Assembly: GCA_021202925.1 (NCBI GenBank)
Contig: JAJQCD010000014.1
Coordinates: 1-64,000, forward strand
Length of the DNA: 64,000 nucleotides
Reading direction: 5' to 3'
From: Clostridiales bacterium
GTDB taxonomy: Bacteria > Bacillota > Clostridia > Lachnospirales > Lachnospiraceae
The position numbers were made by a program, and so were the translations under genes. This document shows positions 968 through 50,386 of this stretch, piece after piece. The notes beneath the pieces are model-generated. The model saw only the letters and a list, made by a program, of their open reading frames with translations, ran no database searches and was not told the origin of the DNA. The stretch's first letter is position 1, and each line of letters begins with the position of its first letter.

Positions 968-968
968 A

Positions 969-3859: not shown

Positions 3860-3890
3860 CCTTCGCACTCCTCATCCCCAAGATCTTCTG

Positions 3891-7870: not shown

Positions 7871-8157
7871 TATCATAACTTTATCCGGCATCCCGCTTTG
7901 TGCATGGCTCACAATCGTTACCCTGGCAGCCAGCTCGGCCCAGGCTGCCTCACGGCACACAGAATGGCTCACTTAGTGCTGCTGCATTCCTGCCCTGACA
8001 CGGTTCATAAGGTTCTGTTGCGTAAGACCCAGGCGTCAACACCGCTTACCAGGGGCAGCACTGCAAGACCAGACCCGAGGCGGGATATCACCTCTGCTGG
8101 AGCGGATTGCAGATACAGGGCACCGCTATCTCCCCGGCTGCCGGAAGCTTTATGACG
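7871..8157 (-). ncRNA. ffs: Signal recognition particle RNA, large Firmicutes type
   Basis: On the minus strand the domain IV core is unmistakable: CAGG, then GCA-GGAA-TGC (the GNRA tetraloop on its stem), then AGCAG. The two ends pair with one another: CATAA plus TCCGGCA on the 5' side with TGCCGGA plus TTATG on the 3' side. This gives an RNA of about 287 bases, the size of the large form with an Alu domain. It guides Ffh to signal sequences during co-translational export. Exact ends are estimated from the pairing. The position next to tadA and near dnaX is usual for this group. Confidence 0.92.
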
Positions 8158-11179: not shown

Positions 11180-11400
11180 CGCTCCTTCCGTCTCACGGAC
11201 TTTCCCTGTAAACGACTATGCTAAGCTCAGTCCGCGCATGAAAGCCGATGACTCCGCTCTGCGAGCTCTCGTCATCGCCGCCAGTATTCGCAATCCGGGC
11301 TATCGCCCTACTTGCTCATACCGGCTTGGTTGCCAAATGTCTGTACGTCCTTGCGTGCAAGCACGCAGTCCGCACAGCCGCTTGGCAACACTTTCACAGT
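11180..11400 (-). other. Structured leader region upstream of rsmA
   Basis: This otherwise empty stretch is rich in inverted repeats. Near 11238-11270 a stem of CGATGAC and GTCATCG holds an inner GCTC/GAGC stem. Near 11297-11310 GGGC pairs with GCCC around TATC. Near 11328-11393 GTTGCCAA pairs with TTGGCAAC around an inner GCGTGC/GCACGC stem. If the promoter at 11403-11431 is used, all three hairpins lie in the 5' untranslated region of rsmA. No riboswitch class was recognised. Confidence 0.5.
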
Positions 11401-34944: not shown

Positions 34945-36018
34945 ATGAAGAAAAGAACCGCATTACTGGCACTGTTCGGCGCAGCTCTGACCCTTACCGC
35001 AACCGCATGCGGCAATTCATCCACCGGGTCAACCGCAACGACAACCGCTGCCGCAGCATCTGCAACCGAAGCAGCAGCTGCCGATTCCAAAGCAACCAAG
35101 ATCAAGTATTCGACCGTATTTGCCGCGACCGGCGTCCAGGCAGATGGCGCAACACGGCTCGGCGAAATTATCGCTGAACAGTCCGAGGGACGACTGGCCA
35201 TGGAGTTATATGCCGGCTCCACGCTCGGCGACAAGGTTGCTTCCATGGAGGGACTGCAGGTAGGAACCATCGAAATGACCGAGTGTGCGGCAACCGACCT
35301 GTCCACCTACAGCTCCATCTGGTCCGTATTCAGCCTGCCTTATCTGTGGGAAAGCGGAACTCAGGCCGTCAATACGATCCAGGATCCTGAAGTGAAGGCA
35401 GTATTAGACGCAGACATGGAGAATAACGGTTTTATCATCATCGCCTGGACAGATATGGGAAGCCGCAGCATCCTCAACAAAAACAAGGCGGTCAACGCGC
35501 CGACTGATCTGTCCGGGATGAAGGTTCGCTGTATGGAAGATACGGTTCTGGCCGGAGCCATCAACGCCATGGGCGCCATTGCCACCCCTCTCGCCTGGAG
35601 CGACTGCTACACGGCGCTGCAGCAGGGAACGATCGACGGTGTGGAAAATTCCCCGGCAGTCATCCTGTCAAGTGGAATGACCGAAGTCGCAAAATATTTC
35701 TCCCTTACCGAACAGTTCACCATCCCGGATCCGGTGTTTGTCAGCAAAACGTGGTTTGACAGTCTTTCCGAGGAAGACCAGGCAGCGCTTCTGGCGGCCG
35801 GTGAGCAGTTCACTGCCGAATGGAATGAGTCAATCTGGCCGGAAGCATCCGAAAGCGCCATCGCTGACCTGCAGGAAGATGGCGTTGAGGTCAACGAAGT
35901 AGATAAAGCTGCTTTTACGGAAGCCGTACAGCCGGTCATCGATGATTTCCTGGCACAGGCTGACGCGGATCAGGTCGCTCTCTACGAACTGCTGACTACG
36001 GTCCGGGAAAAATATTAA
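34945..36018 (+). CDS. TRAP transporter substrate-binding protein DctP-like
   Basis: The 357-residue protein starts MKKRTALLALFGAALTL and has a lipobox-like TATAC with cysteine near residue 22, followed by a Thr/Ala-rich linker and the DctP fold. The arginine of the carboxylate-binding motif is likely in LSGMKVRCME (near residue 195). DctP family proteins bind organic acids, including sugar acids. The start was set at the ATG at 34945 because GGAGG lies eight bases upstream. A hairpin follows the stop. Confidence 0.92.
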   Translation: MKKRTALLALFGAALTLTATACGNSSTGSTATTTAAAASATEAAAADSKATKIKYSTVFAATGVQADGATRLGEIIAEQSEGRLAMELYAGSTLGDKVASMEGLQVGTIEMTECAATDLSTYSSIWSVFSLPYLWESGTQAVNTIQDPEVKAVLDADMENNGFIIIAWTDMGSRSILNKNKAVNAPTDLSGMKVRCMEDTVLAGAINAMGAIATPLAWSDCYTALQQGTIDGVENSPAVILSSGMTEVAKYFSLTEQFTIPDPVFVSKTWFDSLSEEDQAALLAAGEQFTAEWNESIWPEASESAIADLQEDGVEVNEVDKAAFTEAVQPVIDDFLAQADADQVALYELLTTVREKY

Positions 36019-36032
36019 GTGTAAAAAGCAAC

Positions 36033-36067
36033 CCCTGAAAGGACAACGGTTCGTTGTTCTTTCAGGA
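36033..36067 (+). other. Intercistronic hairpin after dctP
   Basis: CCTGAAAGGACAACG pairs with CGTTGTTCTTTCAGG around a three-base loop. No T run follows, so it is unlikely to be a full terminator. It may protect the 3' end of the binding-protein message and raise its level relative to downstream genes. Confidence 0.65.
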
Positions 36068-36090
36068 ATCTATCTAAGGGAGAATGTCTC

Positions 36091-37065
36091 ATGAAAACCA
36101 TACAGGAACTGAAATTAGCCTTTATCGGCGTCAGCCACTGGCATGTCCCGTTATACTATCAGGCGGTACGCCGCGAAGGATTAACGGTCGTGGCGGTCAG
36201 TGACCATAACGAAGAACTGGCCAAAAGGGATGCGAAAGCCTTCGGATGCACCGCATACACGGATGCCACACAGCTTTTAAATCAGGAACATCCGGATTTT
36301 GTATTTGCGTTCGCACCGCATTACGAGATGCCGGAACTGGCTCTCTCGCTGATTGCACGCAGGATACCGTTTGCAATCGAAAAGCCGCTGGGCATAAATG
36401 CTGATGACGTGGAAACGGTCATGCACGCCGCAGAGGAAGCAAATGTGTTTTGTGCCATTCCTTTTGTGTGGCGCTACAGCAGTCTGGTACAGGATTTCAA
36501 GAACAGAGTTCGGCCGGATGAAATTGTACATATGGCATTTAAGTTTGTTGCCGGCCCGCCGTCCAGATATCTTGCCACTTCTCCATGGATGCTGAAAACA
36601 GAGCTCGCCGGAGGCGGATGCATGACCAATCTCGGTGTTCACTTCCTCGATCTGGCCATGTATCTGACCGAATGCACCGATGCGCAGGTATTATCCGGCT
36701 GCTATCAGCGGCAAACCGAATATGATATTGAATGCTACGCAACATCACTGCTCAGGCTGGGCACTGGTGCATCACTGGTTCTGGAAACCGGATACGCATA
36801 TCCGATGGAAGTCACGCAACGGGACAATCGCTGGAATATTGTCACCAAAACCGGTTATTACACATTGGAGCAGGATTATTTTGAAGAACGGGTCTATGGA
36901 GAAAAGACAATCCGCCGGGTCATGAGTACAGACAGTGATGTGTATTATCCCATTTTTGTCAGGGAAACGCTGCGGCAATACCTGAATGGAGAAAAACCAA
37001 AGGCAGGCCTGAAGGATATGCTTGCCGTTCGCAGGGTATTGGATGAAATGAATCAGAAAGGATAA
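36091..37065 (+). CDS. Gfo/Idh/MocA family oxidoreductase
   Basis: The 324-residue dehydrogenase has an unusual nucleotide loop IGVSHWH in place of GxGxxA, the motif IEKPLG and the catalytic NLGVHFLDLAMYL. It is diverged from the first such gene in this operon, so the two probably act on different intermediates. The ATG has AAGGGAG 11 bases upstream. Confidence 0.87.
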   Translation: MKTIQELKLAFIGVSHWHVPLYYQAVRREGLTVVAVSDHNEELAKRDAKAFGCTAYTDATQLLNQEHPDFVFAFAPHYEMPELALSLIARRIPFAIEKPLGINADDVETVMHAAEEANVFCAIPFVWRYSSLVQDFKNRVRPDEIVHMAFKFVAGPPSRYLATSPWMLKTELAGGGCMTNLGVHFLDLAMYLTECTDAQVLSGCYQRQTEYDIECYATSLLRLGTGASLVLETGYAYPMEVTQRDNRWNIVTKTGYYTLEQDYFEERVYGEKTIRRVMSTDSDVYYPIFVRETLRQYLNGEKPKAGLKDMLAVRRVLDEMNQKG

Positions 37066-37079
37066 GGTCAGAGAATACG

Positions 37080-37967
37080 ATGAAAAAGATGTATGGTGTC
37101 ATCACGGCTATGACAACGCCGTTCACAAAAGACGGGAATGTAGATACCAACGCAATCAAAGAACATATTGAATTTCTTATTGAGAAGGGAATCGACTGCA
37201 TTTACCCCTGCGGAACCACCGGAGAAATGCTGAATATGAGCCTGGAAGAAAGGGAACTGGTCGCTGAGACTGTTGTCAAAGCGGTTGCCGGGCGCGTGGT
37301 TGTATACATTCATGCCGGAGCGCAGACTACGGCACAGACAATCCGGCTGGCACAGCATGCCAGAAAAATCGGCGCCGACGGAATCGGGGTCGTCACGCCT
37401 CCGTTCTTTGGATTGAGCGACAAAGCCATCGTTCAGTATTATAAGGACGTTGCGGCAAGCGTTCCCGCTAATTTCCCCATTTATGTCTATGTCATTCCGC
37501 AGTGTGCCGCCAATGATATCACGGCTCCGGTTATGGAAGAAATCGCAGACGCCTGCCCGAATGTAATTGGCGTCAAATACAGCTGGGCTGATTGCATTCG
37601 CCTGAAGGACTATCTGAACGTCCGCAACGGCAACTTCTCTGTGCTGTTCGGACCGGACCGTCTGTTCCTTCCGGCGCTGGCGATGGGCTGCGACGGCACG
37701 GTATCCGGCTGCTCCGGGCCAATGCCAGAACATTTTGTCCGCATCTACGATGCCTGGAAGAAAGGGGATCTGGAAGAAGCACGCAAGGAGCAGAAAATCG
37801 CCAATGAAATCTGCGAAATTATGAAGTCTGGCGCGGACATGGGCATTTTCAAAGCAGTTCTGGATTTCCGCGGTCTGACAGGCGGATACATGCGCAAACC
37901 CCTCCTGGATTTGAACGAAAAGGAAAGAGAAGCGCTGAAAAACGAAATTATGCCGTATTTGCCGTAA
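37080..37967 (+). CDS. DapA/NanA family aldolase
   Basis: The 295-residue TIM-barrel class I aldolase has the GTTGEM substrate loop (near residue 45), a catalytic tyrosine in IYVYVIPQ and the Schiff-base lysine in GVKYSW. The family includes dihydrodipicolinate synthase, sialate lyase and 2-keto-3-deoxy sugar acid aldolases. Given the operon, cleavage of a keto-deoxy sugar acid is most likely. It lies 14 bases after the second oxidoreductase. Confidence 0.9.
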   Translation: MKKMYGVITAMTTPFTKDGNVDTNAIKEHIEFLIEKGIDCIYPCGTTGEMLNMSLEERELVAETVVKAVAGRVVVYIHAGAQTTAQTIRLAQHARKIGADGIGVVTPPFFGLSDKAIVQYYKDVAASVPANFPIYVYVIPQCAANDITAPVMEEIADACPNVIGVKYSWADCIRLKDYLNVRNGNFSVLFGPDRLFLPALAMGCDGTVSGCSGPMPEHFVRIYDAWKKGDLEEARKEQKIANEICEIMKSGADMGIFKAVLDFRGLTGGYMRKPLLDLNEKEREALKNEIMPYLP

Positions 37968-37983
37968 ACGATCGGAGGAATCT

Positions 37984-38883
37984 ATGAGGATTTTAAATTT
38001 CGGCTCCGTCAATATCGATTATGTTTACCGAGTCGAACACTTTGTCCGTCCGGGAGAAACGTTATCCGCCCGCTCTGTAACAAAAAATGCAGGCGGGAAG
38101 GGGTTTAATCAGTCCGTCGCCCTGGCGAAGGCAGGCTGCCAGGTGTACCATGCCGGACACATTGGAAATGACGGCACATTTCTCCTCGACCTGTGTCATG
38201 AATACGGAATCCACACGGATTATCTGACAGAGGTTGACGCCCCCACCGGAAGCACAGTCATCCAGGTGGACGACAACGGTGACAATTGTATTTTACTCTC
38301 GGGTGGAGCAAACCTGCTGATGGATCAGGACTTTATCGGCCAGGTGCTGAACGACTTCCAGAATGGCGATCTGATTGTCCTTCAAAATGAAATCAACTGC
38401 ATGAATGACCTGTTATATCTGGCCCATGAAAAGGGATTGAAGATTGCAATCAATCCGGCGCCCATGAACAACACCATTTCCAGGGATGCCCTGAAACTGG
38501 CCGACTGGATCATTTTAAATGAGACAGAGGCGCAGGAGCTGACGGGTGCCGTGGATTCCATTGCCCAGCTGGAGCGTCTGACAGAAGAATTTCCGCATTC
38601 GGCCTTTCTCCTGACGCTCGGAAGCAAAGGGGCGATCTGTCAGATCGGATCATACCGCTGTCATACAGGAGCATGTCAGGTTGAGGCTGTCGATACCACT
38701 GCCGCCGGAGATACCTTTACGGGATTTTTCCTGTCCGCGATACTCAGCAATCAGGAGCCTGCCGCAGCTCTTTTGACCGCCACCCGGGCCTCAGCCCTGG
38801 CGGTTATGAAAAAAGGCGCCGCAAAATCGATCCCGACACTGGCAGAGGTTCAGGAATGCCCGTTGATTCCGGAAGTTTTTTAA
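37984..38883 (+). CDS. PfkB family carbohydrate kinase
   Basis: The 299-residue ribokinase-type kinase has the sugar-binding NAGGKGFNQSVA motif near residue 40 and the ATP-binding DTTAAGDTFTGF motif near residue 240 with the catalytic aspartate. It phosphorylates a sugar or a keto-deoxy acid. GGAGG lies eight bases upstream. Combined with the aldolase it suggests a phosphorylate-then-cleave route, but the order of steps is inference. Confidence 0.9.
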   Translation: MRILNFGSVNIDYVYRVEHFVRPGETLSARSVTKNAGGKGFNQSVALAKAGCQVYHAGHIGNDGTFLLDLCHEYGIHTDYLTEVDAPTGSTVIQVDDNGDNCILLSGGANLLMDQDFIGQVLNDFQNGDLIVLQNEINCMNDLLYLAHEKGLKIAINPAPMNNTISRDALKLADWIILNETEAQELTGAVDSIAQLERLTEEFPHSAFLLTLGSKGAICQIGSYRCHTGACQVEAVDTTAAGDTFTGFFLSAILSNQEPAAALLTATRASALAVMKKGAAKSIPTLAEVQECPLIPEVF

Positions 38884-38907
38884 GAAATATTGAGGAAGGT
38901 GACCCTT

Positions 38908-39942
38908 ATGAAAAAAATAGTTCTGAAAGCGCCAGGGGAATTAATCCTGCGGGAATCGGATGAGAAAATCAAGGTGTACGGCGGAACCGTCAAAGTCGAT
39001 GTAAGCGCCTGCGCCATTTGCGGAAGTGATCTGGCACTCCTCTCCGGGAAGCGGGATCTCAGCAGGGAAAAGTATTTTGGGCATGAATTCTCCGGTGTCG
39101 TAACGGAAGTATCTGACAGCGCCTGCGGTTTTCAGCCGGGAATGCGTGTCGCCAGTGAGCTGTCACGCACCTGCGGTCAGTGCTGGTACTGCCTCAATGG
39201 GCTGGCCAACTACTGCAGAAGCATGAACGATGCTCTCGATCCAGGCGGATTTACAGAAGAAACACTTGTGCGAAGCGAAGCGGATTACAGTTTTCTGAGT
39301 GCCGTACCATCGTCCGTTGACGACATCATCGCTTCCCTTCTCGAACCCACCAACTGCGCGTATCAGATTGCCAGAAAAGCGCAGATGAAACCAGGCGATA
39401 ACGTCGTGGTGTTTGGCGTAGGGGCGATGGGGTTGATTGCCGGCATTATATTAAAAAGTCTCGGCGCCGGCCATGTAATTGCTGTCGGCCGCAGACCGGC
39501 AAGAATGGAACAGGTCCGCAAAACCGGCATTTTTGATGCAGTCGTGGGAAACGATGCGAAAGGCATGGATGACATTCGCGAAATATGCGGAACCCACGGC
39601 GCCGATATCGCCATCGAAGCAACCGGTACCGCATCCGTATTAACCGATGCCATCGGAATCGTCCGCTATGGCGGAAGAGTTGTCGTTGGCAGCGTGTACA
39701 GCAGCCCGATCAGGGAATTTGACCCGCTTCCAATCTTCCGCAAGGAAATCAGCATTGCCGGAGCGAAGGGACCAATCCCGGCCAGAAAAACCGACGGCAG
39801 CTCCGTGGTCGTCGACCTGGTGAACCGCATTCAGGATGATCTGAGGAAAATCATCCGGGTATATGATTATAAGGATGCGCTGAAGGCCTTTGAAGACGCC
39901 AGATCGGGAGAAGCAATCAAGGCCGTTATCCGATTCAAATAG
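38908..39942 (+). CDS. Zinc-dependent alcohol dehydrogenase family protein
   Basis: The 344-residue medium-chain dehydrogenase has the catalytic zinc ligands in ICGSD and GHEF and the structural zinc cysteines CGQCWYC...C near residues 91-102, followed by the Rossmann motif VFGVGAMGLIAG. It resembles sorbitol or threonine dehydrogenases. The ATG at 38908 has GGAAGG seven bases upstream; an earlier in-frame start would be in the intercistronic gap. It is the last gene of the TRAP operon. Confidence 0.9.
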   Translation: MKKIVLKAPGELILRESDEKIKVYGGTVKVDVSACAICGSDLALLSGKRDLSREKYFGHEFSGVVTEVSDSACGFQPGMRVASELSRTCGQCWYCLNGLANYCRSMNDALDPGGFTEETLVRSEADYSFLSAVPSSVDDIIASLLEPTNCAYQIARKAQMKPGDNVVVFGVGAMGLIAGIILKSLGAGHVIAVGRRPARMEQVRKTGIFDAVVGNDAKGMDDIREICGTHGADIAIEATGTASVLTDAIGIVRYGGRVVVGSVYSSPIREFDPLPIFRKEISIAGAKGPIPARKTDGSSVVVDLVNRIQDDLRKIIRVYDYKDALKAFEDARSGEAIKAVIRFK

Positions 39943-39980
39943 TGACAGACACAGACTTCTCATATGAAACACAGAATTAC

Positions 39981-40028
39981 TCCGGATGAGAAGGTACATC
40001 CCTTACATGGTGTATCTTCTCATCCGGT
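39981..40028 (+). terminator. Terminator of the TRAP operon
   Basis: CCGGATGAGAAG pairs with CTTCTCATCCGG, with an additional TACA/TGTA pair inside. The tail is TTCATCTTAATT, a moderate T tract. Confidence 0.75.
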
Positions 40029-40123
40029 TCATCTTAATTACAGCAACTTTATCCCAACTTGAATTCAATTTCACAAACTCTGTTGTCAAAAATCAAGTAT
40101 AGTTTTCAAAAAAGTTTCCGTAA

Positions 40124-40188
40124 CTGACAAGCGCAGGAATAAAATCGCGCATTGCTTTCCCCGGCAATATCTGTTAAACTGACATGGA
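40124..40188 (+). repeat. 65-base promoter repeat, copy 1
   Basis: This block begins CTGACAAGCGCAGGAAT and ends TAAACTGACATGGAT. It is repeated at 44590-44654 with about five differences, and its core recurs at 40989-41017. Within it is a promoter with -35 TTGCTT (40152-40157), 17 bases and -10 TAAACT (40175-40180), which would drive the small gene starting at 40225. Confidence 0.85.
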
Positions 40189-40224
40189 TGATACGGGAAC
40201 AGGACACCGAAGGAGGCGCAGTTC

Positions 40225-40647
40225 ATGAATCCGAATATTCTTGAAAACAACTGGATTGATCCGGAAACAGTCAAACGGTTCCGGGCGAACCCGTTTCTGG
40301 TGATGCGCATGATATTTATGCACCGGGACAGAGTATGTACCATCATCGATGTCGATTTTAAAAACAGACAGATTTTTATTCAGAATCAGACGGATGATCT
40401 TCTTCACCGTGCGTTTGGTGTTATCGAGCATCCGACCTGGGAAGATTTTGAGGAATTTCTGGAAAGCCGTTGCTTTCCCCGGACACGCGCCAATCTGAAA
40501 CTGGTTTTACGGGATGTCGGCGTGTCCTCCTATGACCCGCTTCAGATCATTGAAAAGACGCAGGGACGAATGGCGGAAGACCATCAATGGATACGTATTC
40601 TGCATCGTGAGGAGGTGCTGAGAGAAGATGGAACGCATCAATTTTGA
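40225..40647 (+). CDS. Conserved protein paired with a HipA/CtkA-like kinase
   Basis: The 140-residue protein begins MNPNILENNWIDPETVKRF and has the stretch AFGVIEHPTWEDFEEFLESRCFP. It shows no signal peptide or membrane segment. I recognise the sequence only as the small gene that precedes HipA-like kinases in some Lachnospiraceae; no function is known. It overlaps the next gene by 20 bases and has AAGGAGG ten bases before the ATG. It is driven by promoter repeat copy 1. Confidence 0.55.
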   Translation: MNPNILENNWIDPETVKRFRANPFLVMRMIFMHRDRVCTIIDVDFKNRQIFIQNQTDDLLHRAFGVIEHPTWEDFEEFLESRCFPRTRANLKLVLRDVGVSSYDPLQIIEKTQGRMAEDHQWIRILHREEVLREDGTHQF

Positions 40648-41014
40648 CCATACCACGCGAATAGAAACTGCCAGCCATTCCTCCAAAGGGAATCAACTGA
40701 AATGGATGATTCATGACAACTGGTATAAAGCAGACTACATGGGATATGAGAGTCTTTCCGAAGTGATCGTTTCCAGTCTTTTGCGGTATTCCGATATCCC
40801 GACCGAACGGCTGATCGAATACTGACCAGTCTGGATTCAATATGACGAAAAGGAAATCTCTCAGTCAATCACACCGTTCCAGGGAATATATGACCCTCGC
40901 ATCCTGCTTCGGGTCGAAGAGATTTTGCGGCAGCAACGACGCAAATATCAATATCTCTTTATCAAACCGGCACAAAGGATTTCATCCGTTGATTTCCCCG
41001 GCAATATCTGTTAA
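40628..41014 (+). pseudogene. Truncated HipA/CtkA-like kinase gene
   Basis: The open part (65 residues) contains SSKGNQLKWMIHDNWYKADYMGYESLSEV, matching the N terminus of HipA/CtkA-like kinases whose real length is about 300 residues or more. A TGA follows EY at 40823-40825. The same frame then continues with PVWIQYDEKEIS for about 62 codons to a TAA at 41012-41014, which lies inside a copy of the repeated promoter element. The continuation suggests a nonsense change plus a large internal deletion. Loss of the kinase core is clear; the exact break is inferred. Confidence 0.65.
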
Positions 41015-41017
41015 ACC
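40989..41017 (+). repeat. Promoter repeat core, partial copy
   Basis: TTGATTTCCCCGGCAATATC and the following TGTTAAAC match the core of the two complete copies, including the -35 and spacer. The -10 is altered to TAAACC. It ends the broken kinase frame, as if a deletion joined this element to the kinase gene. Confidence 0.8.
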
Positions 41018-41043
41018 CCAAATTTACCACTTGAAGACATTGA

Positions 41044-41070
41044 AAGAGGAGCCGAATATGACTCCTCTTC
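41044..41070 (-). terminator. Weak terminator after the TOPRIM-like gene
   Basis: AAGAGGAG pairs with CTCCTCTT around a ten-base loop, about 95 bases past the stop of the minus-strand gene. It has only a short T run. Confidence 0.4.
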
Positions 41071-41163
41071 CATACAAATGCACGGTTTCCCCTATATTTG
41101 TTGGTTCGGAAATTCTGCTCAAATGCAACTTCCAAACTGCCGTTAGTAGCTTTATTAACATGA

Positions 41164-41919
41164 CTATTCTAACTCACCAATATGCGTAGCGGCAAGCCTT
41201 ATAATGTCAGACTCAAAGCATGCCGCGCTTGTACATAATTTCTTTACCTCTTCCCAGTTGTTGCAAACAGCCGCTGACATTTCCCGATAAGTCGAAGTTT
41301 GCTTCTTTTTTCCGTGGATGCGCAGTCCATGGTAATACTTTCCCTTAGAAATCAAAGTTTCCCATGGATTCTCAATCCGCTCAATATGATTCATTTTATC
41401 ATACGCTGCAACAACCCAGGCATCCGTGCTGTCGCATGGGATCACGACGCAGGTGTTTTCCAAATCTTTCAGCAAACCTGTTATTAACAACTTTAAATGT
41501 TTCTGATAGCCTTCGACAGATCGTTCATGATCTGCACAAGGCAACGTCAATGGGCAATCCTGCCTTGCATTTGTCCCCATTGAGTCACAATCCAGGGGAT
41601 TTCTGTTCCTCTTGAACTCACATGTATTAGAATCACACCAACAATGAGAAATCCGCTCCTTACGGGATACATCCCCATCCATCTGAACAATCAGGAAGTC
41701 CAATCTGGGCTCAATTTCTTTCATAATCTGTTCTTTTATCAGCGCGTTATCTGCGCACCACTTCCAGACTCCCTTCCAGCCATTGCCATATTCGCCCATC
41801 AGGTTTGGCTCCGGCTGAAGTAACTTGTAGTTGTTATTATCTTCTAAGACATGGTCCGTCACAGATTGTAAAAGGATATAATCAGTAGGGCCTTCGCAAA
41901 CAATTCCAATGCTTTTCAT
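41164..41919 (-). CDS. TOPRIM-like protein partnered with an OLD/RecF-like ATPase
   Basis: The 251-residue protein starts MKSIGIVCEGPTDYILLQ, with a TOPRIM-type acidic residue (E9 in EGPTD), and carries DGD at 81-83 in LIVQMDGDV, the second acidic motif. A run with six cysteines (C93, C95, C100, C111, C122, C128) and H92 looks like a metal-binding insertion. Its ATG overlaps the stop of the ATPase gene (ATGA), so the two are translationally coupled. Pairs of this kind (AAA15-type ATPase plus TOPRIM or DUF4276/RloB-like protein) occur in AbiL- and PARIS-like defence units. Nuclease activity is not shown by the sequence. Confidence 0.6.
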   Translation of the reverse strand: MKSIGIVCEGPTDYILLQSVTDHVLEDNNNYKLLQPEPNLMGEYGNGWKGVWKWCADNALIKEQIMKEIEPRLDFLIVQMDGDVSRKERISHCWCDSNTCEFKRNRNPLDCDSMGTNARQDCPLTLPCADHERSVEGYQKHLKLLITGLLKDLENTCVVIPCDSTDAWVVAAYDKMNHIERIENPWETLISKGKYYHGLRIHGKKKQTSTYREMSAAVCNNWEEVKKLCTSAACFESDIIRLAATHIGELE

Positions 41920-43100
41920 AAGAGTTCCGGAACACCTCCCAGCCGCCCGCTGATCCAAAGTCTGGAAAGCGGAAACCCTGTATCAATCAAATCCTGTGAT
42001 ACTTTAATCCGCTGTATCTGTGCAAAGCCATCCTTGTCCCGGTCCAACGCAAACAGGCGAATGTCATCATTTGCCAGATTTAGTCCGTCAAGAACCAGCG
42101 GATTATGAGTAGTCAAAAAAACATGCTTCCCATTTCTGATGATTTGCTCACAGAATACTTCTATCATCTTTTTTGCCAGCCGTGGATTTAGTGCATGATC
42201 AAAACTGTCAACCGCGAATATAGACGGGCTCTGTGGATGCATCGCCAGACAAAGCATAAATAAGACATACAGCGCGCCCTCGCTTGCGTCATATCCTGTA
42301 AATTTCGATGTGTTTTTCATAAACCGATCGCTGAATTCGATCACTTGTCGTGTCGTTGGCACGTTCGGATGAATACTTTTTTTCTTTGGAGCATCTATCG
42401 AAATATCCGATGCCCAATCAATCATCTCCAACACGTCTTCCATATAAAGAGCCCCCAGCATCAGATCCTCCTCCCGTTCCTCTATCAGATCCTGCAGGGC
42501 TTCCGCCAGACGCCCACCATTCAAACCGACCGGTGCCATCTGATTCGTGTCAGGTATAATTCCGCGCAGTACAGCTGTTCCGGGTTGGAAAATGCCATAC
42601 TTTGAAAAGTCAGATGCAATGCTTCGCGCCTCCATAAGCTCCGGCTTATCATCAATCAGAAAAAAGCCAATATAATTATTCATGGATTGGACGGAAGCAT
42701 TACTCCGTCCCCATTTCTTCTCGCCATTTTGATACAATGCCTCTGAATGATACTTCCAGTACTCGGACTCCTTCGGTGTTGTCAAATGAACATCATATCG
42801 AAAACAGCTTCCTGTTTCCGTATCTTCCCACTCTAAAGACAGATCAACAGTAGATTTTTTACGCTTTATGCTTTTGAAAGCAGATTTGTACAAATCAGAA
42901 GTACTCAAGCGTATTCCTTTTCGCTGCAGGCTTCCTGCATCCACCCGGTCGGTCAGTGCCGCACTTAATAATCCGATTGCTTCCAGTATCGTAGATTTAC
43001 CGGAACCATTGGCACCAATAAATACATTCACTCTTCCCGGCTCAAAAGCAGTATTGTATAAAGATTTGAAATTACCAAAGCTAATAGTCTTCAACTTCAC
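41916..43100 (-). CDS. AAA ATPase of OLD/RecF type (defence-like)
   Basis: The 394-residue ATPase starts VKLKTISFGNFKSLYN and has Walker A GANGSGKST (residues 29-37), a signature-like YDASEGALYVLFMLCLAM, a Walker B region SIFAVDSFDHALNPR in which the usual DE is replaced by DS, and an H-loop VFLTTHNPLVL. It lacks an obvious coiled-coil arm. The GTG start at 43100 has GGAGG nine bases upstream; an earlier frame start is less likely. The gene is more AT-rich than its neighbours, a hint of transfer. It is coupled to the TOPRIM-like gene downstream. Confidence 0.75.
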   Translation of the reverse strand: MKLKTISFGNFKSLYNTAFEPGRVNVFIGANGSGKSTILEAIGLLSAALTDRVDAGSLQRKGIRLSTSDLYKSAFKSIKRKKSTVDLSLEWEDTETGSCFRYDVHLTTPKESEYWKYHSEALYQNGEKKWGRSNASVQSMNNYIGFFLIDDKPELMEARSIASDFSKYGIFQPGTAVLRGIIPDTNQMAPVGLNGGRLAEALQDLIEEREEDLMLGALYMEDVLEMIDWASDISIDAPKKKSIHPNVPTTRQVIEFSDRFMKNTSKFTGYDASEGALYVLFMLCLAMHPQSPSIFAVDSFDHALNPRLAKKMIEVFCEQIIRNGKHVFLTTHNPLVLDGLNLANDDIRLFALDRDKDGFAQIQRIKVSQDLIDTGFPLSRLWISGRLGGVPELL

Positions 43101-43199
43101 GTTCCGGCACCTCCATTCATAGATGCAGTATAACATACTCTGTTAATTAAATATAGTCTGTTTTTCGATTATTATCACATCTAATTTACCAGTAATTCT

Positions 43200-44525
43200 T
43201 CATTCTATATTCTTTTCATCAGTACATACCCCACTGACAGCCGCCCCACAGGCCGCTTCCTCCTCATAAGCCGCCAGAGAAAGCTCTGCGCCAAACATTC
43301 TCCGGCAAATCTCCTGTAAGATCGGGTTTCTCCGGAATCCATTGCCGGACGCCACCAGATGCGCTGCCTCGATATTCGTTCCGGCGCACATCAGGCGATA
43401 CATATCGTACAATTCCCGGGCCATCCCTTCCAGGACACCATAGGTCAGGCCCTCCGGCGTGAAATTATCTTCACTCAGATTGGTGATGCTCCCGCGTTGT
43501 TCCGGATTCACCCGTGTTCCGTTGAACAGAGTGCAGACCTGCATCGGATCGCTCATCTTCATTCCCTCTTCTGCGAGCCCGGCCATCATGCCATACTGGG
43601 ATGAATCCGGCAGACCCGCGGCTCTCGCATAGCTTCGGAAAAAATGCTCCAGCACAGCATAGGCCCGGCCGCCGCACAGAGAAGCACCGACTAACAGGTA
43701 TGTTCCCTTTACAAATGGCCTTGCTTCAATACCCGGCGCTTCATAATACTGATCCGAGAGCGCTGATATCTGGCCTCCCGTTCCCATATTCAGCAAAAGT
43801 GTATTCCTGCACATACCGACAGAGCCCAGGAAACTGGCCTGGTTATCGCCGATTGCCACGGTGACCGGAATCTTCCGATAAGTTCCCAGGGAAACGAAGT
43901 CCTCTGTAAATTCCGGCAGAATTGCTGTCTCAATCCCCATCTCCCGCATGGCATCCACATGGAACCTGTTTTCTCTGCTGTCAAAAAACCCCAGGCTTGC
44001 CGCATTGCCGGCATGAATCAAAGGGCGTTTTCGCCCGGTCAGCGCCATGCCGAGATAATCCCCGATGGTGCACAGGAAAACCGCTCCCCGGGGCACCAGC
44101 CCGTTTCTCTGATTATACAGATGCGTCAGCAGCCCATAGCCCGCGGCCACCGACAATCCGGTCTTTTCTGAAACCAGTTCTCTCCATGACTGTTGACCGT
44201 CTTTCACCGGAAGATTTCCACGCCCATCCTGCCAGGTATAGAGTGGACTAATGTGCCTGCCGTCCCCATCCACATATACAATCCCGTGCATCTGACCGGT
44301 CAGACCGATCGCTTCTGCCTCCGGACAACAGTCCAGCAGCGCATCTGTCAGTTCCGCTGCCTTGCGGAGAATGACATCCACGTCCTGTATGCGTTCCCAT
44401 TCCTGTTCTGTCTTTATAAAGCTGCCATTCTCCATCGTCCTGGCTTCGAGCACGTTTCCCCCGTCTACATCCAGAACAACCCCGCTGATGGTTGTCGTTC
44501 CAATATCAATTCCGATTGCTTTCAT
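43200..44525 (-). CDS. FGGY family carbohydrate kinase, sedoheptulokinase-like
   Basis: The 441-residue kinase has the phosphate-binding GIDIGTTTISG motif at the N terminus, TGQMHGIVYVDGDG near residue 75, and the second-domain LLNMGTGGQISAL stretch. At 441 residues it is shorter than xylulokinase or glycerol kinase (about 490-500), which favours the sedoheptulokinase branch. It transfers phosphate to a ketose. No transport or isomerase gene is adjacent. It has its own promoter at 44568-44596 and is divergent from the MATE gene. Confidence 0.82.
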   Translation of the reverse strand: MKAIGIDIGTTTISGVVLDVDGGNVLEARTMENGSFIKTEQEWERIQDVDVILRKAAELTDALLDCCPEAEAIGLTGQMHGIVYVDGDGRHISPLYTWQDGRGNLPVKDGQQSWRELVSEKTGLSVAAGYGLLTHLYNQRNGLVPRGAVFLCTIGDYLGMALTGRKRPLIHAGNAASLGFFDSRENRFHVDAMREMGIETAILPEFTEDFVSLGTYRKIPVTVAIGDNQASFLGSVGMCRNTLLLNMGTGGQISALSDQYYEAPGIEARPFVKGTYLLVGASLCGGRAYAVLEHFFRSYARAAGLPDSSQYGMMAGLAEEGMKMSDPMQVCTLFNGTRVNPEQRGSITNLSEDNFTPEGLTYGVLEGMARELYDMYRLMCAGTNIEAAHLVASGNGFRRNPILQEICRRMFGAELSLAAYEEEAACGAAVSGVCTDEKNIE

Positions 44526-44539
44526 TTCTGTTCCTCATT

Positions 44540-44555
44540 GTTTCAAACGTTTCCT
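44540..44555. promoter_or_regulatory. AAACGTTT palindrome in the FGGY kinase leader
   Basis: GTTTCAAACGTTTCCT carries the LacI/cre-type AAACGTTT core just downstream of the predicted transcription start of the kinase gene. It may link the gene to carbon control. Confidence 0.4.
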
Positions 44556-44567
44556 GCCTGCAAGTCT

Positions 44568-44596
44568 ATTATAAAAAATACCGTGTATTCTGACAA
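44568..44596 (-). promoter_or_regulatory. Promoter of the FGGY kinase gene
   Basis: Minus-strand -35 TTGTCA (44591-44596), 17 bases, -10 TATAAT (44568-44573). The -35 falls inside the left end of promoter repeat copy 2, so the repeat contributes to two divergent promoters. Confidence 0.75.
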
Positions 44597-44654
44597 GCAC
44601 AGGAATGAAATCACGCATTGATTTCCCCGGCAATATCTGTTAAACTGACATGGA
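44590..44654 (+). repeat. 65-base promoter repeat, copy 2
   Basis: This copy has -35 TTGATT (44618-44623), 17 bases and -10 TAAACT (44641-44646) and drives the MATE gene starting at 44685. The 65 bases match copy 1 at about 60 positions, much closer than expected for unrelated promoters. Confidence 0.85.
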
Positions 44655-44684
44655 TAAAAGGCAAGTGAGAGGTTTTACGATACG

Positions 44685-46052
44685 ATGAACTCCAATACGA
44701 AAAAAACAACGACCGTCGATATGACGGTCGGTTCCATCTCCAAACTGCTGATTGCCTATGCGATCCCCCTGCTGCTGGGCAATCTTTTTCAGCTTCTTTA
44801 TAATACGGTTGACGTACTGGTGGTAGGCAACTTTGTTGGCACACAGGCACTGGCCGCAGTCGGCTCGACGACACCCATCATCAATATTCTAGTGTCGTTT
44901 TTTAACGGTTTCTCGGTCGGCGCAGGCGTCGTCATCAGCCGCTATTACGGTGCGCACAATGAAAAACAGATGCACACCGCCATTGAGACGACGATGGCGT
45001 GTACCTTTGTTTTCGGCGTATTGTTCACCATCATTGGCGTATCCGGCGTCCCCTTCATGCTGCGGCTGATGTCGACTCCGGACGATGTGGTCGCCTCCGC
45101 CACGACTTATCTGCGCATTTATTTCTCCGGAATCACCGGGTTACTGGTTTATAACATGGGAAGCGGTATCCTGCGCGCAGTTGGCGATACCCGCCGCCCC
45201 CTGATGTTCCTGTGTTTCACCAGTGTCCTCAACATCTTCCTTGACCTGCTCTTTGTGCTTGCCTTCCGTCTGGGAATCGCCGGAGTCGCTTACGCAACCA
45301 TTCTCTCGCAGTTCCTGTCCGCGATTCTGATCCTGATCCTTCTCTCACGGACATCGGACATGTATCGGCTTGTCTGGCGCGAACTGGCGATTGATCTCCA
45401 TATTCTGCAGCAGATCACGTCGATCGCACTGCCGACCGCCATCCAGTCGACCGTCACCTGCTTTTCCAACGTGATTGTCCAATCCTATATCAACAGCTTC
45501 GGCTCCAGCTGCATGGCGGGCTGGAGTACCTACATAAAGGTCGATCAGTACATGTTCCTGCCGATTCAGAGCATGGGACAGGCTGTCACCACTTTTGTGA
45601 GTCAGAACATCGGCGCCAGGAATGTGGAACGCGCCAAACAGGGAACCATACAGGCCTTTCGCATGATTCTCTCGCTCTCGGTCGTAGTCTCCCTGATTAT
45701 CTGGATCGGCGCAGCTCCCATCACCCGCGCTTTCAGCAATGATGCGGAGGTGCTGGCCTACAGCCGCCTGTTTGTCCGCATGAATATTCTGTTCCTGAAT
45801 CTTGGCTGTATCCACCAGATTCTGGCCGGCGCTCTGCGGGGAACCGGAGACGCCAGGGCGCCAATGATCATTATGATCTCGTCCTTTGTTGTCTTCCGGC
45901 AGATTTATCTCTATGTGGGAAGCCGAATCCTGCATGATATCCATGTGGTCGGGTTCGGGTATCCGATTGGATGGATTCTCTGCTCGATTCTGATGGTCAG
46001 CTATTACCGGTTCAGCCACTGGGAGGAAAAAGCACTCGCACAGACCAGATAA
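44685..46052 (+). CDS. MATE family efflux transporter
   Basis: The 455-residue membrane protein has 12 hydrophobic segments in two halves and the family stretches IPLLLGNLFQLLYNTVD and GVAYATILSQF. MATE transporters export drugs and other organic cations using sodium or proton gradients. The ATG has GAGAGG about 12 bases upstream. It is followed by a terminator. Confidence 0.93.
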   Translation: MNSNTKKTTTVDMTVGSISKLLIAYAIPLLLGNLFQLLYNTVDVLVVGNFVGTQALAAVGSTTPIINILVSFFNGFSVGAGVVISRYYGAHNEKQMHTAIETTMACTFVFGVLFTIIGVSGVPFMLRLMSTPDDVVASATTYLRIYFSGITGLLVYNMGSGILRAVGDTRRPLMFLCFTSVLNIFLDLLFVLAFRLGIAGVAYATILSQFLSAILILILLSRTSDMYRLVWRELAIDLHILQQITSIALPTAIQSTVTCFSNVIVQSYINSFGSSCMAGWSTYIKVDQYMFLPIQSMGQAVTTFVSQNIGARNVERAKQGTIQAFRMILSLSVVVSLIIWIGAAPITRAFSNDAEVLAYSRLFVRMNILFLNLGCIHQILAGALRGTGDARAPMIIMISSFVVFRQIYLYVGSRILHDIHVVGFGYPIGWILCSILMVSYYRFSHWEEKALAQTR

Positions 46053-46069
46053 CAGAACAGAAAAAGGCC

Positions 46070-46104
46070 TCGAAAACCGTTTGCAATGGTTCTCGAGGCT
46101 TTTT
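46070..46104. terminator. Bidirectional terminator after the MATE gene
   Basis: AAAAAGGCCTCGAAAACC pairs with the downstream complement GGTTCTCGAGGCTTTTT, giving a T run on each strand. It serves the convergent MATE and DeoR genes. Confidence 0.88.
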
Positions 46105-46119
46105 CCTTTTTCGCTTCTT

Positions 46120-46860
46120 TTACTTTGGCACAATATAATTCCCGCTCGCAATCAGCATGTCGGTCTCTTTCTCGCAGATAATCGGCACCTCACCGAGTTC
46201 GAAGACCTTGCATAACGTATTCTTGCCGCTCTTGCTGCTGTCAGCCAGAACATAAGATGCTTCCGAATTGCGGCATACAATCTGCTTCTTCTCCGCTTCC
46301 CGGATATCCGGCGTACTGACGCCGGCCCGCTCCGAGAAGCCGTTGCATCCGATAAATGCCTTGTCAAAATACATCTCTGATAATTCACTGTTGGTCCGGG
46401 TTCCCAGGATCGAAGCGGTCTTCACGTTCAGCTCACCGCCGACGGTGAAGCACTTGAAACGGGCATCCTGCAGATCCTGAAAAATTCCGGCATTTGTTGT
46501 CACAATCGTGATATCTTTGTTCAGCAGATGCTGAACCATGCGCAGAAGCGTACTCCCGGAATCCAGATAAATGGATTCCCCGTCATTGACCAGGCCGGCC
46601 GCATATTTCGCGATCATTTCCTTCTCATTGACATTTTTGATCGCTTTTGAATTGATCGGGACCTCATAAGAGCCCTGCTTCAGACAGGCACCGCCGCCCC
46701 GAAGCATGATAATCTGCCCTTCCGCCTCCAGCGTCTTCAGATCCCGGCGGATGGTCGATTCGGATACGCCGTCCAGCTCCTCCAGGAAATCATTCAGTGA
46801 AACGACTTCTTTTTTCCCCAATAATTGCAGCATTTGTAATCTTCTCTGATAAGGTATCAT
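46120..46860 (-). CDS. DeoR/GlpR family transcriptional regulator
   Basis: The 246-residue regulator has the N-terminal winged helix with ESTIRRDLKTLEAEG and RGGGACL, and the C-terminal sugar-phosphate sensing domain with LDSGSTLLRMV and FIGCNGF. It lies downstream of ribokinase on the same strand, after a gap of about 75 bases, so it is probably the last gene of the ribose-like operon and senses a phosphorylated sugar. Confidence 0.92.
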   Translation of the reverse strand: MIPYQRRLQMLQLLGKKEVVSLNDFLEELDGVSESTIRRDLKTLEAEGQIIMLRGGGACLKQGSYEVPINSKAIKNVNEKEMIAKYAAGLVNDGESIYLDSGSTLLRMVQHLLNKDITIVTTNAGIFQDLQDARFKCFTVGGELNVKTASILGTRTNSELSEMYFDKAFIGCNGFSERAGVSTPDIREAEKKQIVCRNSEASYVLADSSKSGKNTLCKVFELGEVPIICEKETDMLIASGNYIVPK

Positions 46861-46937
46861 ACGTTACCCCTTCCCTACTGTCAAAATACCGTCATCGTTC
46901 TGATAAAATTTTACCGCAATTTTCAAAAAAAGTCAAA

Positions 46938-47837
46938 TCATCCCACTTCATCCAGGGTCGGCATCGATGCCTGCGCACCCAGTCTGCAGACGGTGACCGC
47001 GCTGCACCGGGTAGCAAATTCGCAGGCGTCCGTCAGGTTTTCCCCGCGGATCAACGCAGAACCTACGCCACCGATGAAGCTGTCTCCCGCTCCGGTTGTC
47101 TCAATCGCTTCCACCTTCTTTGAGGGAAGGAAGGTCACGGCTCCACGCTCACACACTACGGATCCCAGGCTTCCCAGTGTGATGATGATATCCGCGCCGT
47201 ATTTCTCAGCCAGGAGACGCGCTCCCTTTTCTGCCTGTTCCCTGGTGTCAATCTTCTCTTTCAGATAGAACGCAGCTTCCACTTCGTTTACCACAAGAAT
47301 GTCACATTTTTCCAGATATGCTTCTGGTATCTCGGCTGCCGGAGCCGCGTTTAACAGCACCTGGCATCCGCAGGCCTTCGCCTTGTCAATGGCGTATTCG
47401 TTGATCTCCTGCGGAATTTCCATCTGCAGGATGACCAGTCTGGCCTCCTTCAGTATCGGTTCCGCTGCATCCACATCTTCTCTGGTCACTGCAAAATTCG
47501 CACCGCGCACAATACAGGCGAAAACGCTGCCGTCTTCCACCGCGTTGACAACGCCCATTCCGGTTGCCTCTGTGCATCTGCGGATATAATCCGTATGCAC
47601 GCCATACTTCCACGCGCTCTCCAGGAGATAATCCCCCTGCGCGTCTTCTCCCACGCAGCCTACCATATAAGTTTCCACGCCCAGCTTCGCTGCCTGCACG
47701 GCCTGATTCGCACCTTTTCCGCCCGCACTGAACGTCGCAGTGTCCGCCGGCAGGGTCTCTCCGCATTCCGGGAGACGGGGGATCTTCAGAATCACATCAT
47801 AATTCAGACTCCCGATCACCACAATTTTATCACGCAT
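46938..47837 (-). CDS. rbsK: Ribokinase
   Basis: The 299-residue PfkB-family kinase has GGKGANQAVQAAKLG near residue 40 and the catalytic ETTGAGDSFIGG motif near residue 245. It phosphorylates ribose or a related sugar at C5 or C1 after uptake by the ABC transporter encoded upstream. The ATG at 47837 follows GGAGG by five bases. A hairpin lies between it and the permease gene. Confidence 0.88.
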   Translation of the reverse strand: MRDKIVVIGSLNYDVILKIPRLPECGETLPADTATFSAGGKGANQAVQAAKLGVETYMVGCVGEDAQGDYLLESAWKYGVHTDYIRRCTEATGMGVVNAVEDGSVFACIVRGANFAVTREDVDAAEPILKEARLVILQMEIPQEINEYAIDKAKACGCQVLLNAAPAAEIPEAYLEKCDILVVNEVEAAFYLKEKIDTREQAEKGARLLAEKYGADIIITLGSLGSVVCERGAVTFLPSKKVEAIETTGAGDSFIGGVGSALIRGENLTDACEFATRCSAVTVCRLGAQASMPTLDEVG

Positions 47838-47861
47838 GTCTTCCTCCTTCGGTTTATGACA

Positions 47862-47895
47862 ACCGGGAAGGATCACTGCCGCAATCCTTCCCGGT
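47862..47895 (-). other. Intercistronic hairpin between permease and ribokinase
   Basis: ACCGGGAAGGAT pairs with ATCCTTCCCGGT around a ten-base loop. No T run follows, so it is more likely an mRNA-stabilising or partial terminator. Confidence 0.6.
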
Positions 47896-47912
47896 ACAAA
47901 CAGATTTCATTC

Positions 47913-48884
47913 TCAGTCTTTCTTATGGCGAGCCATGAATGCTGCGATATCGCCCTTCACAAACTCAAAGTAAGAAGCGACAATGATGATGAGACCGGTT
48001 ACGACATACTGCCAGAACGAATCTACGTTAATAACGACCATACCAACCTTCAGAACCGCCAGGAGAAGTGCTCCCACAAAAGTACCAAGAGCCGTACCAC
48101 GGCCTCCTGCCATGGACGTGCCGCCGATTGCCGCCGCTGCAATGGCATTCGTCTCGTAGCTGATACCGGCAGTTGGCTCGGCAGAACCAAGACTTGCCAA
48201 CATAACCAGGCCCGCTACTGCCGTGCAGACACCGCTTGCAATATACGCAATGTATTTGGTCTTCTTTACATTAACACCGGAAAGCTTGGCCGCTTCCTCA
48301 TTACCGCCGACCGCGTAGAGATAATCGCCGGTCTTTGTCTTGGAGAGAATGATGTGCGCAATGATAAACACAACGATCATCACAAGGACATAATAACGGA
48401 TACCGGTGGTTCCTATCTGACCATTGAAGATATTCCGGAAGGAATCCGGGACATTGGTCACCGGAGCGCCGCCTGTCACGACATATGCAACGCCTCGATA
48501 CAGGCTCATGGTGCCCAGGGTAGCGATGAACGGCTGCAGCTTCAGGTTCGCTACCAGGATTCCGTTGAACAGACCCAGCACTGCGCCCACCAGCAGGCCA
48601 ATGATAATCGCCAGGAACGGATTCATTCCGCCCACACACGAAGACGCCACGGCGATGCCGACAATTGCAAAGGTACAACCGATCGAAAGGTCAATGCCGC
48701 CGGTCAGGATGGCAAACATGATACCAACCGCAAGCAGGCTGTTCAGCACCATCTGCTGGAACACCGTCAGCATGTTTCTCCAGGTCATGAACTGCGAATT
48801 GATCGTGGTAAAGACCACACACATAATAACAGTCGCAATCAGCACGAGAATTTCGCGCTTATATTTCGCATAAAAATTTTTCAT
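47913..48884 (-). CDS. Ribose-type ABC transporter permease
   Basis: The 323-residue permease has about ten TM segments and the family stretch GGIDLSIGCTFAIVGI plus the C-terminal AIGGTSMAGGRGTALGTFVGALLLAV. It is the RbsC subunit type. Its ATG overlaps the stop of the ATPase gene (ATGA), giving coupled translation. Confidence 0.92.
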   Translation of the reverse strand: MKNFYAKYKREILVLIATVIMCVVFTTINSQFMTWRNMLTVFQQMVLNSLLAVGIMFAILTGGIDLSIGCTFAIVGIAVASSCVGGMNPFLAIIIGLLVGAVLGLFNGILVANLKLQPFIATLGTMSLYRGVAYVVTGGAPVTNVPDSFRNIFNGQIGTTGIRYYVLVMIVVFIIAHIILSKTKTGDYLYAVGGNEEAAKLSGVNVKKTKYIAYIASGVCTAVAGLVMLASLGSAEPTAGISYETNAIAAAAIGGTSMAGGRGTALGTFVGALLLAVLKVGMVVINVDSFWQYVVTGLIIIVASYFEFVKGDIAAFMARHKKD

Positions 48885-50386
48885 GACTCGTTTCCTCCAA
48901 TCGCATAGTTTAATATCGTATCTGAGTCAAACGCTTCCCTGTCCGTGAACTCTCCCGTGATCTTACCCTCGCTCATGACGATCAGGCGATCACTGATTCC
49001 CATTGCCTCCGGAAGTTCGGACGACACCACGATCAGGCTCTTCCCGGAAGCAACCAGCTCCTCCATCAGACGGTAGATCTCAGCCTTCGCCGCTACATCG
49101 ACACCCTTGGTCGGCTCGTCAAAAATAATGATATCGACGTTCGTGGACATCCATTTCGCCAGAATCACCTTCTGCTGATTTCCGCCGGACATATTCACAG
49201 TCAGATACTCCGGAGAACGCGGATGAATATCCAGTTCCTCAAAGTAATGCTTCGCATTTTCCAGCTTCTTTGCATCGCTGACAAATACGCCGGACATATA
49301 TTTCTCAAGGCTCGAAATTGCGATATTATCGCAGTTGGACGCCAGCTTGTTGAAGCCCTGCGTCTTCCGGTCCTCCGGAAGCATTCCGATTCCCATCCGC
49401 AGTGCTTTCGTCGAATTCCAGTTGCCGGATATCTCACTGCCCTTGAAGGAAATCTTTCCGCCGATCTTGCGGTCCGCGCCGGTGATCACTCTCATAATCT
49501 CCGTACGTCCTGCTCCTACCAGGCCATAAAATCCGAGGATCTCACCCTTATGCAGTTCGAAGCTGATATCATGAAACTTCTTCCCGTCAGAGAGATGATC
49601 CACCTTGAGGACGACTTCCTCCTTCGCCTGGCATGGCTTCTGCCTCGTCGCCACTGCAGATACGCTTCTTCCGACCATGGCGTGAATCAACTCCTCCTGC
49701 GTCGTCTCCCTGATGTTCATGGTCTGTATGTACTCTCCGTCACGCATGATGGACGCCCGGTCACAGATCTGAAAGATTTCTTCCAGGTGATGACTCACAT
49801 ACAGAATGGTGATGCCTTCCTTTTTCAGCTTCTCGATAACCGCAAACAACGCCTCGGTTTCCTTTGACGTCAGAGACGCCGTCGGCTCATCCAGTGAAAT
49901 GATATTCGAATGATGATAAATCGCCTTTGCAATCGCCAGCATCTGCTTTTCCCCGGCTGTCAGGGTACTCACGATATCTCTGGAGTGGAAACGGCAGTTG
50001 AGTTCCGTCAGAATCGCGTCCACGTCCTTGTGCATCTTCGTGAAATCAATGAACGGTCCCTTTTTCGGCTGATATCCAAGCGTAACATTCTGACCGACGG
50101 TCAGCTGTTCGACGACCATGGTCTCCTGGTGCACCTTGGAAATATTTCCGTTCAGAATCGCATCGTTCGGGTTCTTAAAGTTCACCTTTTTTCCATGAAG
50201 ATAAACTTCGCCATCATATTCATTGTACACACCATGAAGGATATTCAGCAGCGTGGATTTTCCCGCGCCGTTTTCTCCCAGAAGGGCATGCACCTCTCCC
50301 TCTTCCACAGAAAAGGAGATATCTTTCAACACATGCACCCCTGGAAAATATTTGTTAATCTTAACAAATTCCACTGCTTTTCCCAT
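48881..50386 (-). CDS. Ribose-type ABC transporter ATP-binding protein
   Basis: The 501-residue protein has two ABC domains in one chain. The first has Walker A GENGAGKST and LTAGEKQML; the second has the degenerate GLVGAGRTE and the signature MSGGNQQKV. This is the RbsA/MglA arrangement for pentose or hexose uptake. It follows the binding-protein gene after a hairpin and overlaps the permease gene. Confidence 0.93.
   Translation of the reverse strand: MGKAVEFVKINKYFPGVHVLKDISFSVEEGEVHALLGENGAGKSTLLNILHGVYNEYDGEVYLHGKKVNFKNPNDAILNGNISKVHQETMVVEQLTVGQNVTLGYQPKKGPFIDFTKMHKDVDAILTELNCRFHSRDIVSTLTAGEKQMLAIAKAIYHHSNIISLDEPTASLTSKETEALFAVIEKLKKEGITILYVSHHLEEIFQICDRASIMRDGEYIQTMNIRETTQEELIHAMVGRSVSAVATRQKPCQAKEEVVLKVDHLSDGKKFHDISFELHKGEILGFYGLVGAGRTEIMRVITGADRKIGGKISFKGSEISGNWNSTKALRMGIGMLPEDRKTQGFNKLASNCDNIAISSLEKYMSGVFVSDAKKLENAKHYFEELDIHPRSPEYLTVNMSGGNQQKVILAKWMSTNVDIIIFDEPTKGVDVAAKAEIYRLMEELVASGKSLIVVSSELPEAMGISDRLIVMSEGKITGEFTDREAFDSDTILNYAIGGNES

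Follow-up and report, generated by a model that had tools for sequence, protein, structure and literature searches.

We analysed a stretch of 64,000 nucleotides (positions 1 to 64,000 of contig JAJQCD010000014.1, hereafter the window) from a Clostridiales gut bacterium of the Lachnospiraceae, which encodes two coupled genes for an OLD/SMC-type ATPase (A) and a TOPRIM-like nuclease candidate (B). By its profile matches, the pair is a member of PDC-M31, an already catalogued and uncharacterised PADLOC family of defence candidates ('PDC' denoting phage defence candidate, according to a passage of PMC11514479); a literature search found no paper naming PDC-M31. By analogy with related systems, the pair is probably a split OLD-type anti-phage module (ABC ATPase plus TOPRIM, PARIS-like), in which A would restrain the two-metal nuclease B until infection.

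Both proteins match the PDC-M31 profiles over almost their full length, and the gene order is that of the relatives. A (394 aa, 41919..43100, with a GTG start at 43100 and the stop codon at 41916-41918) aligns with residues 3-392 to positions 2-394 of the 395 of PDC-M31A (E 3.2e-159), and B (251 aa, 41167..41919, stop codon 41164-41166) with residues 1-241 to positions 1-238 of the 241 of PDC-M31B (PDLC04573, E 2.8e-103), each as the best PADLOC family; these genes and all motifs and promoter elements given below lie on the minus strand. The PDC-M31 models outscore those of PARIS, AbiL and Gabija (AriA, AbiLi and GajA) by far, which bears out a sequence-only reading that had proposed an ATPase and TOPRIM-like pair and a possible defence system. 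Its further suggestion, that the family may be separate from PARIS and AbiL, stands insofar as DUF4435 is absent and PDC-M31 is the best match, but this family had already been catalogued. Within PDC-M31, the window copy goes with model PDLC04573 and contains an insert, whereas a plasmid copy fits PDLC04571/04572 better and is devoid of it.

A contains a Walker A motif (GANGSGKS, residues 29-36; 42993..43016), an ABC signature-like DASEG (within YDASEG, residues 271-275; 42276..42290) that is invariant in 19/19 copies, a Walker B motif ending in Asp298-Ser299 (AVD298-S299; 42204..42209) and, from the alignment of copies, an H-loop His332 (42105..42107). Asp298 and His332 are invariant among the 19 aligned copies, while residue 299 is Ser in 18 and Asn in one; in contrast to OLD ATPases, the usual catalytic Glu is replaced, and it occurs in none of the 21 copies examined. 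The motifs named in the sequence-only reading, a Walker A and H-loop of OLD/RecF type with a DS-type Walker B, are all present. This altered Walker B (D-S or D-N), as read from the alignment, is a new observation, and the missing Glu suggests that A binds ATP without fast turnover. Pfam assigns AAA_21 to A, matches to RecF and Rad50 are weak, and none of the best 25 of 71 NCBIfam matches came near its cut-off.

The partner carries a candidate TOPRIM motif 1 (E9-G-P-T-D13; 41881..41895) and motif 2 (D81-G-D83; 41671..41679) as well as Lys205-Lys206 (41302..41307), which may correspond to Lys562, a catalytic residue in class 2 OLD, although this pairing is inferred rather than aligned (residue roles as given in an excerpt of PMC6755086). 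Alignment of 21 copies showed that the acidic residues are conserved: E9 is Glu in 20 of them (Lys in one), D13, D81 and D83 are kept in all 21, and K205/206 in 20-21. A structure model of B places the E9 and DxD motifs after strands 3-7 and 75-79, in line with the TOPRIM signature, in which an invariant Glu follows beta-1 and the DxD follows beta-3. At E values up to 1, PADLOC yielded for B only PDC-M31B and, weakly, PDC-M38B and HEC-01B; Pfam gave no match to B, DUF4435 was found neither in the window copy nor in any of the 21 members (Pfam, E up to 1), and the PDB held no relevant sequence relative. The best matches in a viral fold library were weak, with an RloB-like protein third (E 0.12). 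Against the TOPRIM assignment, and lowering confidence in it, the hhalign probability for B was low and an unrelated Pfam match scored better. DUF4276 was considered as a parent family, which is unsupported (profile comparison E 0.075, C-terminal part only). The TOPRIM assignment of B agrees across several lines and is likely, if of modest strength.

Directly after DxD, Clostridial B contains a Cys6-His2 insert (H92, C93, C95, C100, C111, C122, C128 and H131; 41527..41646), the eight residues of which are invariant in 21/21 aligned copies. All eight are also kept in the phage-record copy (40% identity) and absent except for C128 from the Enterobacter plasmid copy (27% identity), in which E9, D13, D81, D83 and K206 are kept; the insert is thus specific to one branch of the family. 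The model has low confidence in this region. The simplest prediction is that the insert binds zinc next to the active site, at either one site or two, and such a zinc-like insert is a new observation within PDC-M31.

The pair was compared with several known systems and differs from each. In PARIS (AriA and AriB), AriA keeps the Walker B Glu and AriB is a DUF4435 protein; A lacks this Glu, and B has neither a DUF4435 match nor an AriB-named PADLOC match at E up to 1. AbiL (AbiLi and AbiLii), which is counted among ATPase-TOPRIM systems in a passage of PMC12409363, likewise has an ATPase gene adjoining a TOPRIM-type partner, and A matches AbiLi (E 2.6e-24), but B has no AbiLii-named match at E up to 1, the presence of an AbiLii model in PADLOC being unchecked. 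In OLD nucleases and Gabija GajA the ATPase and TOPRIM are fused, whereas here they are separate genes; the OLD metal-site residue E508 has no certain counterpart in B, and in place of the GajB helicase gene of Gabija, the next neighbours are an FGGY kinase, a MATE transporter and small open reading frames (ORFs). PARIS, AbiL and Gabija were considered and not adopted for the pair, as their defining partner genes or profiles did not appear; retrons and Septu were set aside solely because no neighbours or domains of that kind were present.

Together the two genes make up a compact cassette of 2 kb, which occurs at chromosomal sites unrelated to one another. The genome collection contained 31 loci, denoted by L numbers, with A and B together at every locus where the contig reaches. 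Among 150 genomes of the bacterial family, 12 had matches, six of them full length, including the window's own, and the rest remnants or weak; a search of 398 genomes of the phylum with PDLC04571 (E 0.001) matched only the window's own genome. Relatives occurred in one of 72,556 plasmid records and one of 50,697 phage records (E 0.01) and at three loci of viral contigs. When positions 36001-50000 of the window were compared with the relatives (blastn), matches were confined to 41181-43209. As a further new observation, copies similar in their DNA have, for the most part, nothing but the promoter and the two genes in common. Between relatives (matches longer than 300 bp and above 80% identity), this holds for pairs such as L002/L026 (91%), L004/L009, L004/L012, L006/L011, L008/L010 and L019/L021, with common blocks of about 1.9-2.3 kb that comprise the promoter, the two genes and, in some cases, what directly follows them. 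The cassettes of L023 and L024, two metagenome genomes, agree at 99.2% over 873 bp and diverge shortly after the B stop codon, which suggests that this cassette moved very recently. Other comparisons weigh against homology limited to the cassette: upstream, L004 and L008 have another 916 bp in common (87%), though not at the same distance, and longer stretches are common to L004/L005/L007, L015/L016/L032, L006/L029 and the viral contigs L050-L052. L004, L005 and L007, named as different genera, have 13.7-16.5 kb around the cassette in common at 99.7-99.99% identity, reflecting either a recent large transfer or cross-contamination. No neighbour family (blastp, E 1e-10, 60% of length) was common to more than five of 29 sets (28 loci and the window), in agreement with the earlier remark that the genes are not beside housekeeping genes: a conserved housekeeping context was sought across these sets and not found. 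A comparison with 41 genomes, including the window's own, yielded no empty site: other matches reached at best 50% identity to the kinase and 30% to the dehydrogenase on the opposite flank.

Damage to the cassette is frequent, affecting nine of the 31 loci, although many loci are metagenome assemblies in which frameshifts may be errors. B alone is damaged at four loci (L019, L027, L029 and L032), A alone at one (L006) and both at four (L026, L028, L030 and L031); at two further loci the contig ends within or before A. Pairwise identities of A and B correlate (r 0.91 over 18 loci, 0/2000 permutations); conservation is higher for A than for B in 153/153 pairs. For A, the ratio of non-synonymous to synonymous substitution (dN/dS) was 0.03-0.05 (7 of 9 pairs were measurable), and for B it was 0.05-0.14 (6 of 9 pairs). 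In the comparison with L002, which is the closest full-length relative, the values were 0.035 and 0.14, respectively.

The cassette also carries its own putative control site. Upstream of the ATPase gene lies an operator-like inverted repeat, AATTAGATGT-N22-ATATTTAATT (43145..43186; 19/20 positions, a score reached by 0/100 shuffles), followed by an extended -10 element, TGTTATACT (43127..43135). An inverted repeat with 31-33 bp spacing was found in 21 of the 28 promoters examined. In a close group of 17 copies (ATPase at least 68% identical to that of the window, plus L028), AATTAGATAT (8-10 of 10 positions) is followed 32 or 33 bp further by [A/G]TATTTAATT and then by an extended -10 that resembles TGCTATACT and comes 19 bp after the second half-site begins. 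With rows anchored on the second half-site, identity to the majority was 0.92 in the -10 element, 0.60 in the spacer, 0.55 after the -10 and, over the 24 bp that precede the site, 0.42, the value of 0.95 in half-site 2 being so by construction. Shuffles of each copy's own upstream sequence reached the observed score in 0/100 cases in 16 copies and in 1/100 in L015; this is no independent test, since the half-site consensus was derived from the very sequences scored and the shuffles preserve nothing beyond base composition. In the deeper relatives L020, L025, L037 and L050 the half-sites are 31-32 bp apart and the -10 is shifted onto the second half-site (0/100 shuffles), while in L021, L022, L024, L038, L048 and L049 there is either no repeat or one whose score does not clearly exceed that of shuffles, and one more copy could not be judged. 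All sites scoring at least 17/20 in 822 kb (overlapping and duplicate records included) lie upstream of a cassette copy or remnant. Allowing three mismatches at most and keeping this spacing, the 3.17-Mb genome of the window contains no second site. The spacing of about three helical turns and the overlap with the promoter suggest that the repeat is an operator. As no regulator gene travels with the cassette, the repeat may be bound by A and/or B, or else by a widespread host protein. This cassette-specific control site is a new observation.

In PARIS, the ATPase sequesters a TOPRIM tRNase, which phage proteins release (from a passage of PMC12409363), and the proposed restraint of B by A follows this analogy. 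An ATP-bound multimer of A would bind and restrain B, until a phage-encoded or infection-induced signal acts on A and frees it. Freed B could then cleave nucleic acid, either host tRNA (as AriB) or DNA (as OLD and GajA), the two targets being about equally probable, by two-metal catalysis in which E9, D13, D81 and D83 would act together with one more acidic residue (D163, D166 or E180) and K205/206; cleavage would stop phage growth at the expense of the cell. Direct observation covers the structure of the genes, their family, the conserved motifs, selection, the homology limited to the cassette and the operator-like repeat; the TOPRIM fold of B is inferred (with moderate confidence), and so are complex formation, nuclease activity, the trigger and the abortive outcome. 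A more elaborate version, speculative and on balance unlikely, is that Clostridial PDC-M31 is a self-regulated module: a non-hydrolysing ATP clamp, A, would hold a TOPRIM nuclease gated or aimed by the eight-ligand zinc insert, A or the pair would bind its own 32-bp-spaced repeat, and a phage trigger capturing A would both free the nuclease and de-repress the operon. If true, PDC-M31 would contain a feedback loop in the style of toxin-antitoxin systems; we know of none described for PARIS or OLD systems, for which no dedicated search was made. The class of bacterial immune systems built from split ABC-ATPase/TOPRIM pairs is growing, and the trigger or target is known for few of its members. 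The Glu-less ATPase, the metal-ligand insert, the cassette-borne control site and the bare two-gene unit at unrelated sites lead to testable hypotheses, and an anonymous catalogue entry gains defined residues to mutate.

The same features might also be read as those of a toxin-antitoxin-like addiction pair or a pair stabilising a plasmid or integrative and conjugative element, not primarily anti-phage, with B as toxin, A as antitoxin and the repeat as autoregulatory operator. This is distinctly unlikely: the compact two-gene cassette, the operator-like repeat without a separate regulator, the excess of B-only over A-only decay (4 vs 1) and the copy on a conjugative plasmid would fit it, but an ABC-type ATPase is, to our knowledge, not a typical antitoxin, the plasmid copy lies near CBASS genes, and the related ATPase-TOPRIM pairs of tested function are anti-phage, according to passages on PARIS (PMC12409363) and in an OLD review (PMC10568477). 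A non-immune host enzyme of DNA or RNA maintenance, combining a RecF/Rad50-like ATPase with a TOPRIM as in RecR or RNase M5, is improbable; the weak RecF and Rad50 matches of A and a cell-cycle role reported for an archaeal OLD-class ATPase (in an excerpt of PMC12796447) point that way, whereas the patchy distribution (12/150 genomes), the frequent decay, the lack of a conserved neighbour and the cassette-limited homology are unlike a core function. That B is no nuclease, its acidic motifs serving other phosphotransfer or only a binding scaffold in a Cys/His-rich Rossmann-like protein, is very improbable given that the candidate catalytic residues are retained across the copies and in the plasmid relative, even though other Rossmann-like folds match nearly as well as OLD in fold comparison, the model has low confidence in the insert and inactive TOPRIM folds exist (C. 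difficile CWB2, in a passage of PMC6755086).

A defence context, also newly observed, is seen for the sole plasmid relative, a distant one. It is carried by pE5_001, a conjugative plasmid from Enterobacter hormaechei, and about 1.2 kb downstream of it follows a CBASS operon containing SAVED-PDDEXK effector, CD-NTase and E1-E2 genes (PADLOC) together with an annotated Mov34/JAB gene and an integrase, in a gene table that is incomplete. In Clostridia, the cassette usually lies among genes not known as defence genes. Among 139 of 142 neighbour ORFs (three long ones were left out) from 27 of 49 loci and the window, the clear defence matches at 1e-20 were the three CBASS proteins of pE5_001 plus an AbiD; four matches to mad3 and one each to DndA, SspA and subtilase were ambiguous (best 25 of 31 families). 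The scarcity of defence neighbours counts against a general defence-island habit. None of the 139 ORFs was similar to P0002 (phmmer) or the A2 profile (hmmsearch) at E up to 10. In L049, a faecal phage record, a 1257-aa HD-CE/HATPase protein (483-4253) is encoded directly upstream of the pair, and no PADLOC model matches it at 1e-5.

At the locus itself, the A and B genes overlap by an ATGA stop/start (41916..41919), and a GGAGG ribosome-binding site (43110..43114) lies 9 bp upstream of the GTG start of the ATPase gene. The pair has a G+C content of 44.2% compared with 51.6% in the window, a value equally low in 1.0% of windows of the same size. The gene pair seen in the sequence-only reading is thereby confirmed as real, with exact coordinates for the overlap and with the higher AT content relative to its surroundings. 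Upstream of the operon are genes for an FGGY carbohydrate (sugar) kinase, on the same strand as the pair, and a MATE transporter; downstream are one 140-aa ORF and smaller frames, none with a Pfam match, and metabolic genes beyond. Rfam gave no match near the pair; its two matches in the window, bacterial large signal recognition particle RNA and Clostridiales-1 small RNA, are at 7884-8145 and 11239-11396, both on the minus strand. A 28-nt direct repeat (40989-41016 and 44618-44645) flanks the segment of B, A and the FGGY kinase, with a third copy at 40152-40179; two copies bound the decayed-looking region 40225-41016, which holds the 140-aa ORF and short frames. A 66-bp version of the repeat is present at 40124-40189 and 44590-44655. 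The 23-nt core of the 28-nt repeat has three occurrences genome-wide (up to two mismatches), always at this locus. Perhaps the copy in front of the MATE gene is the original one, and the repeat may be a trace of the rearrangement by which the cassette arrived.
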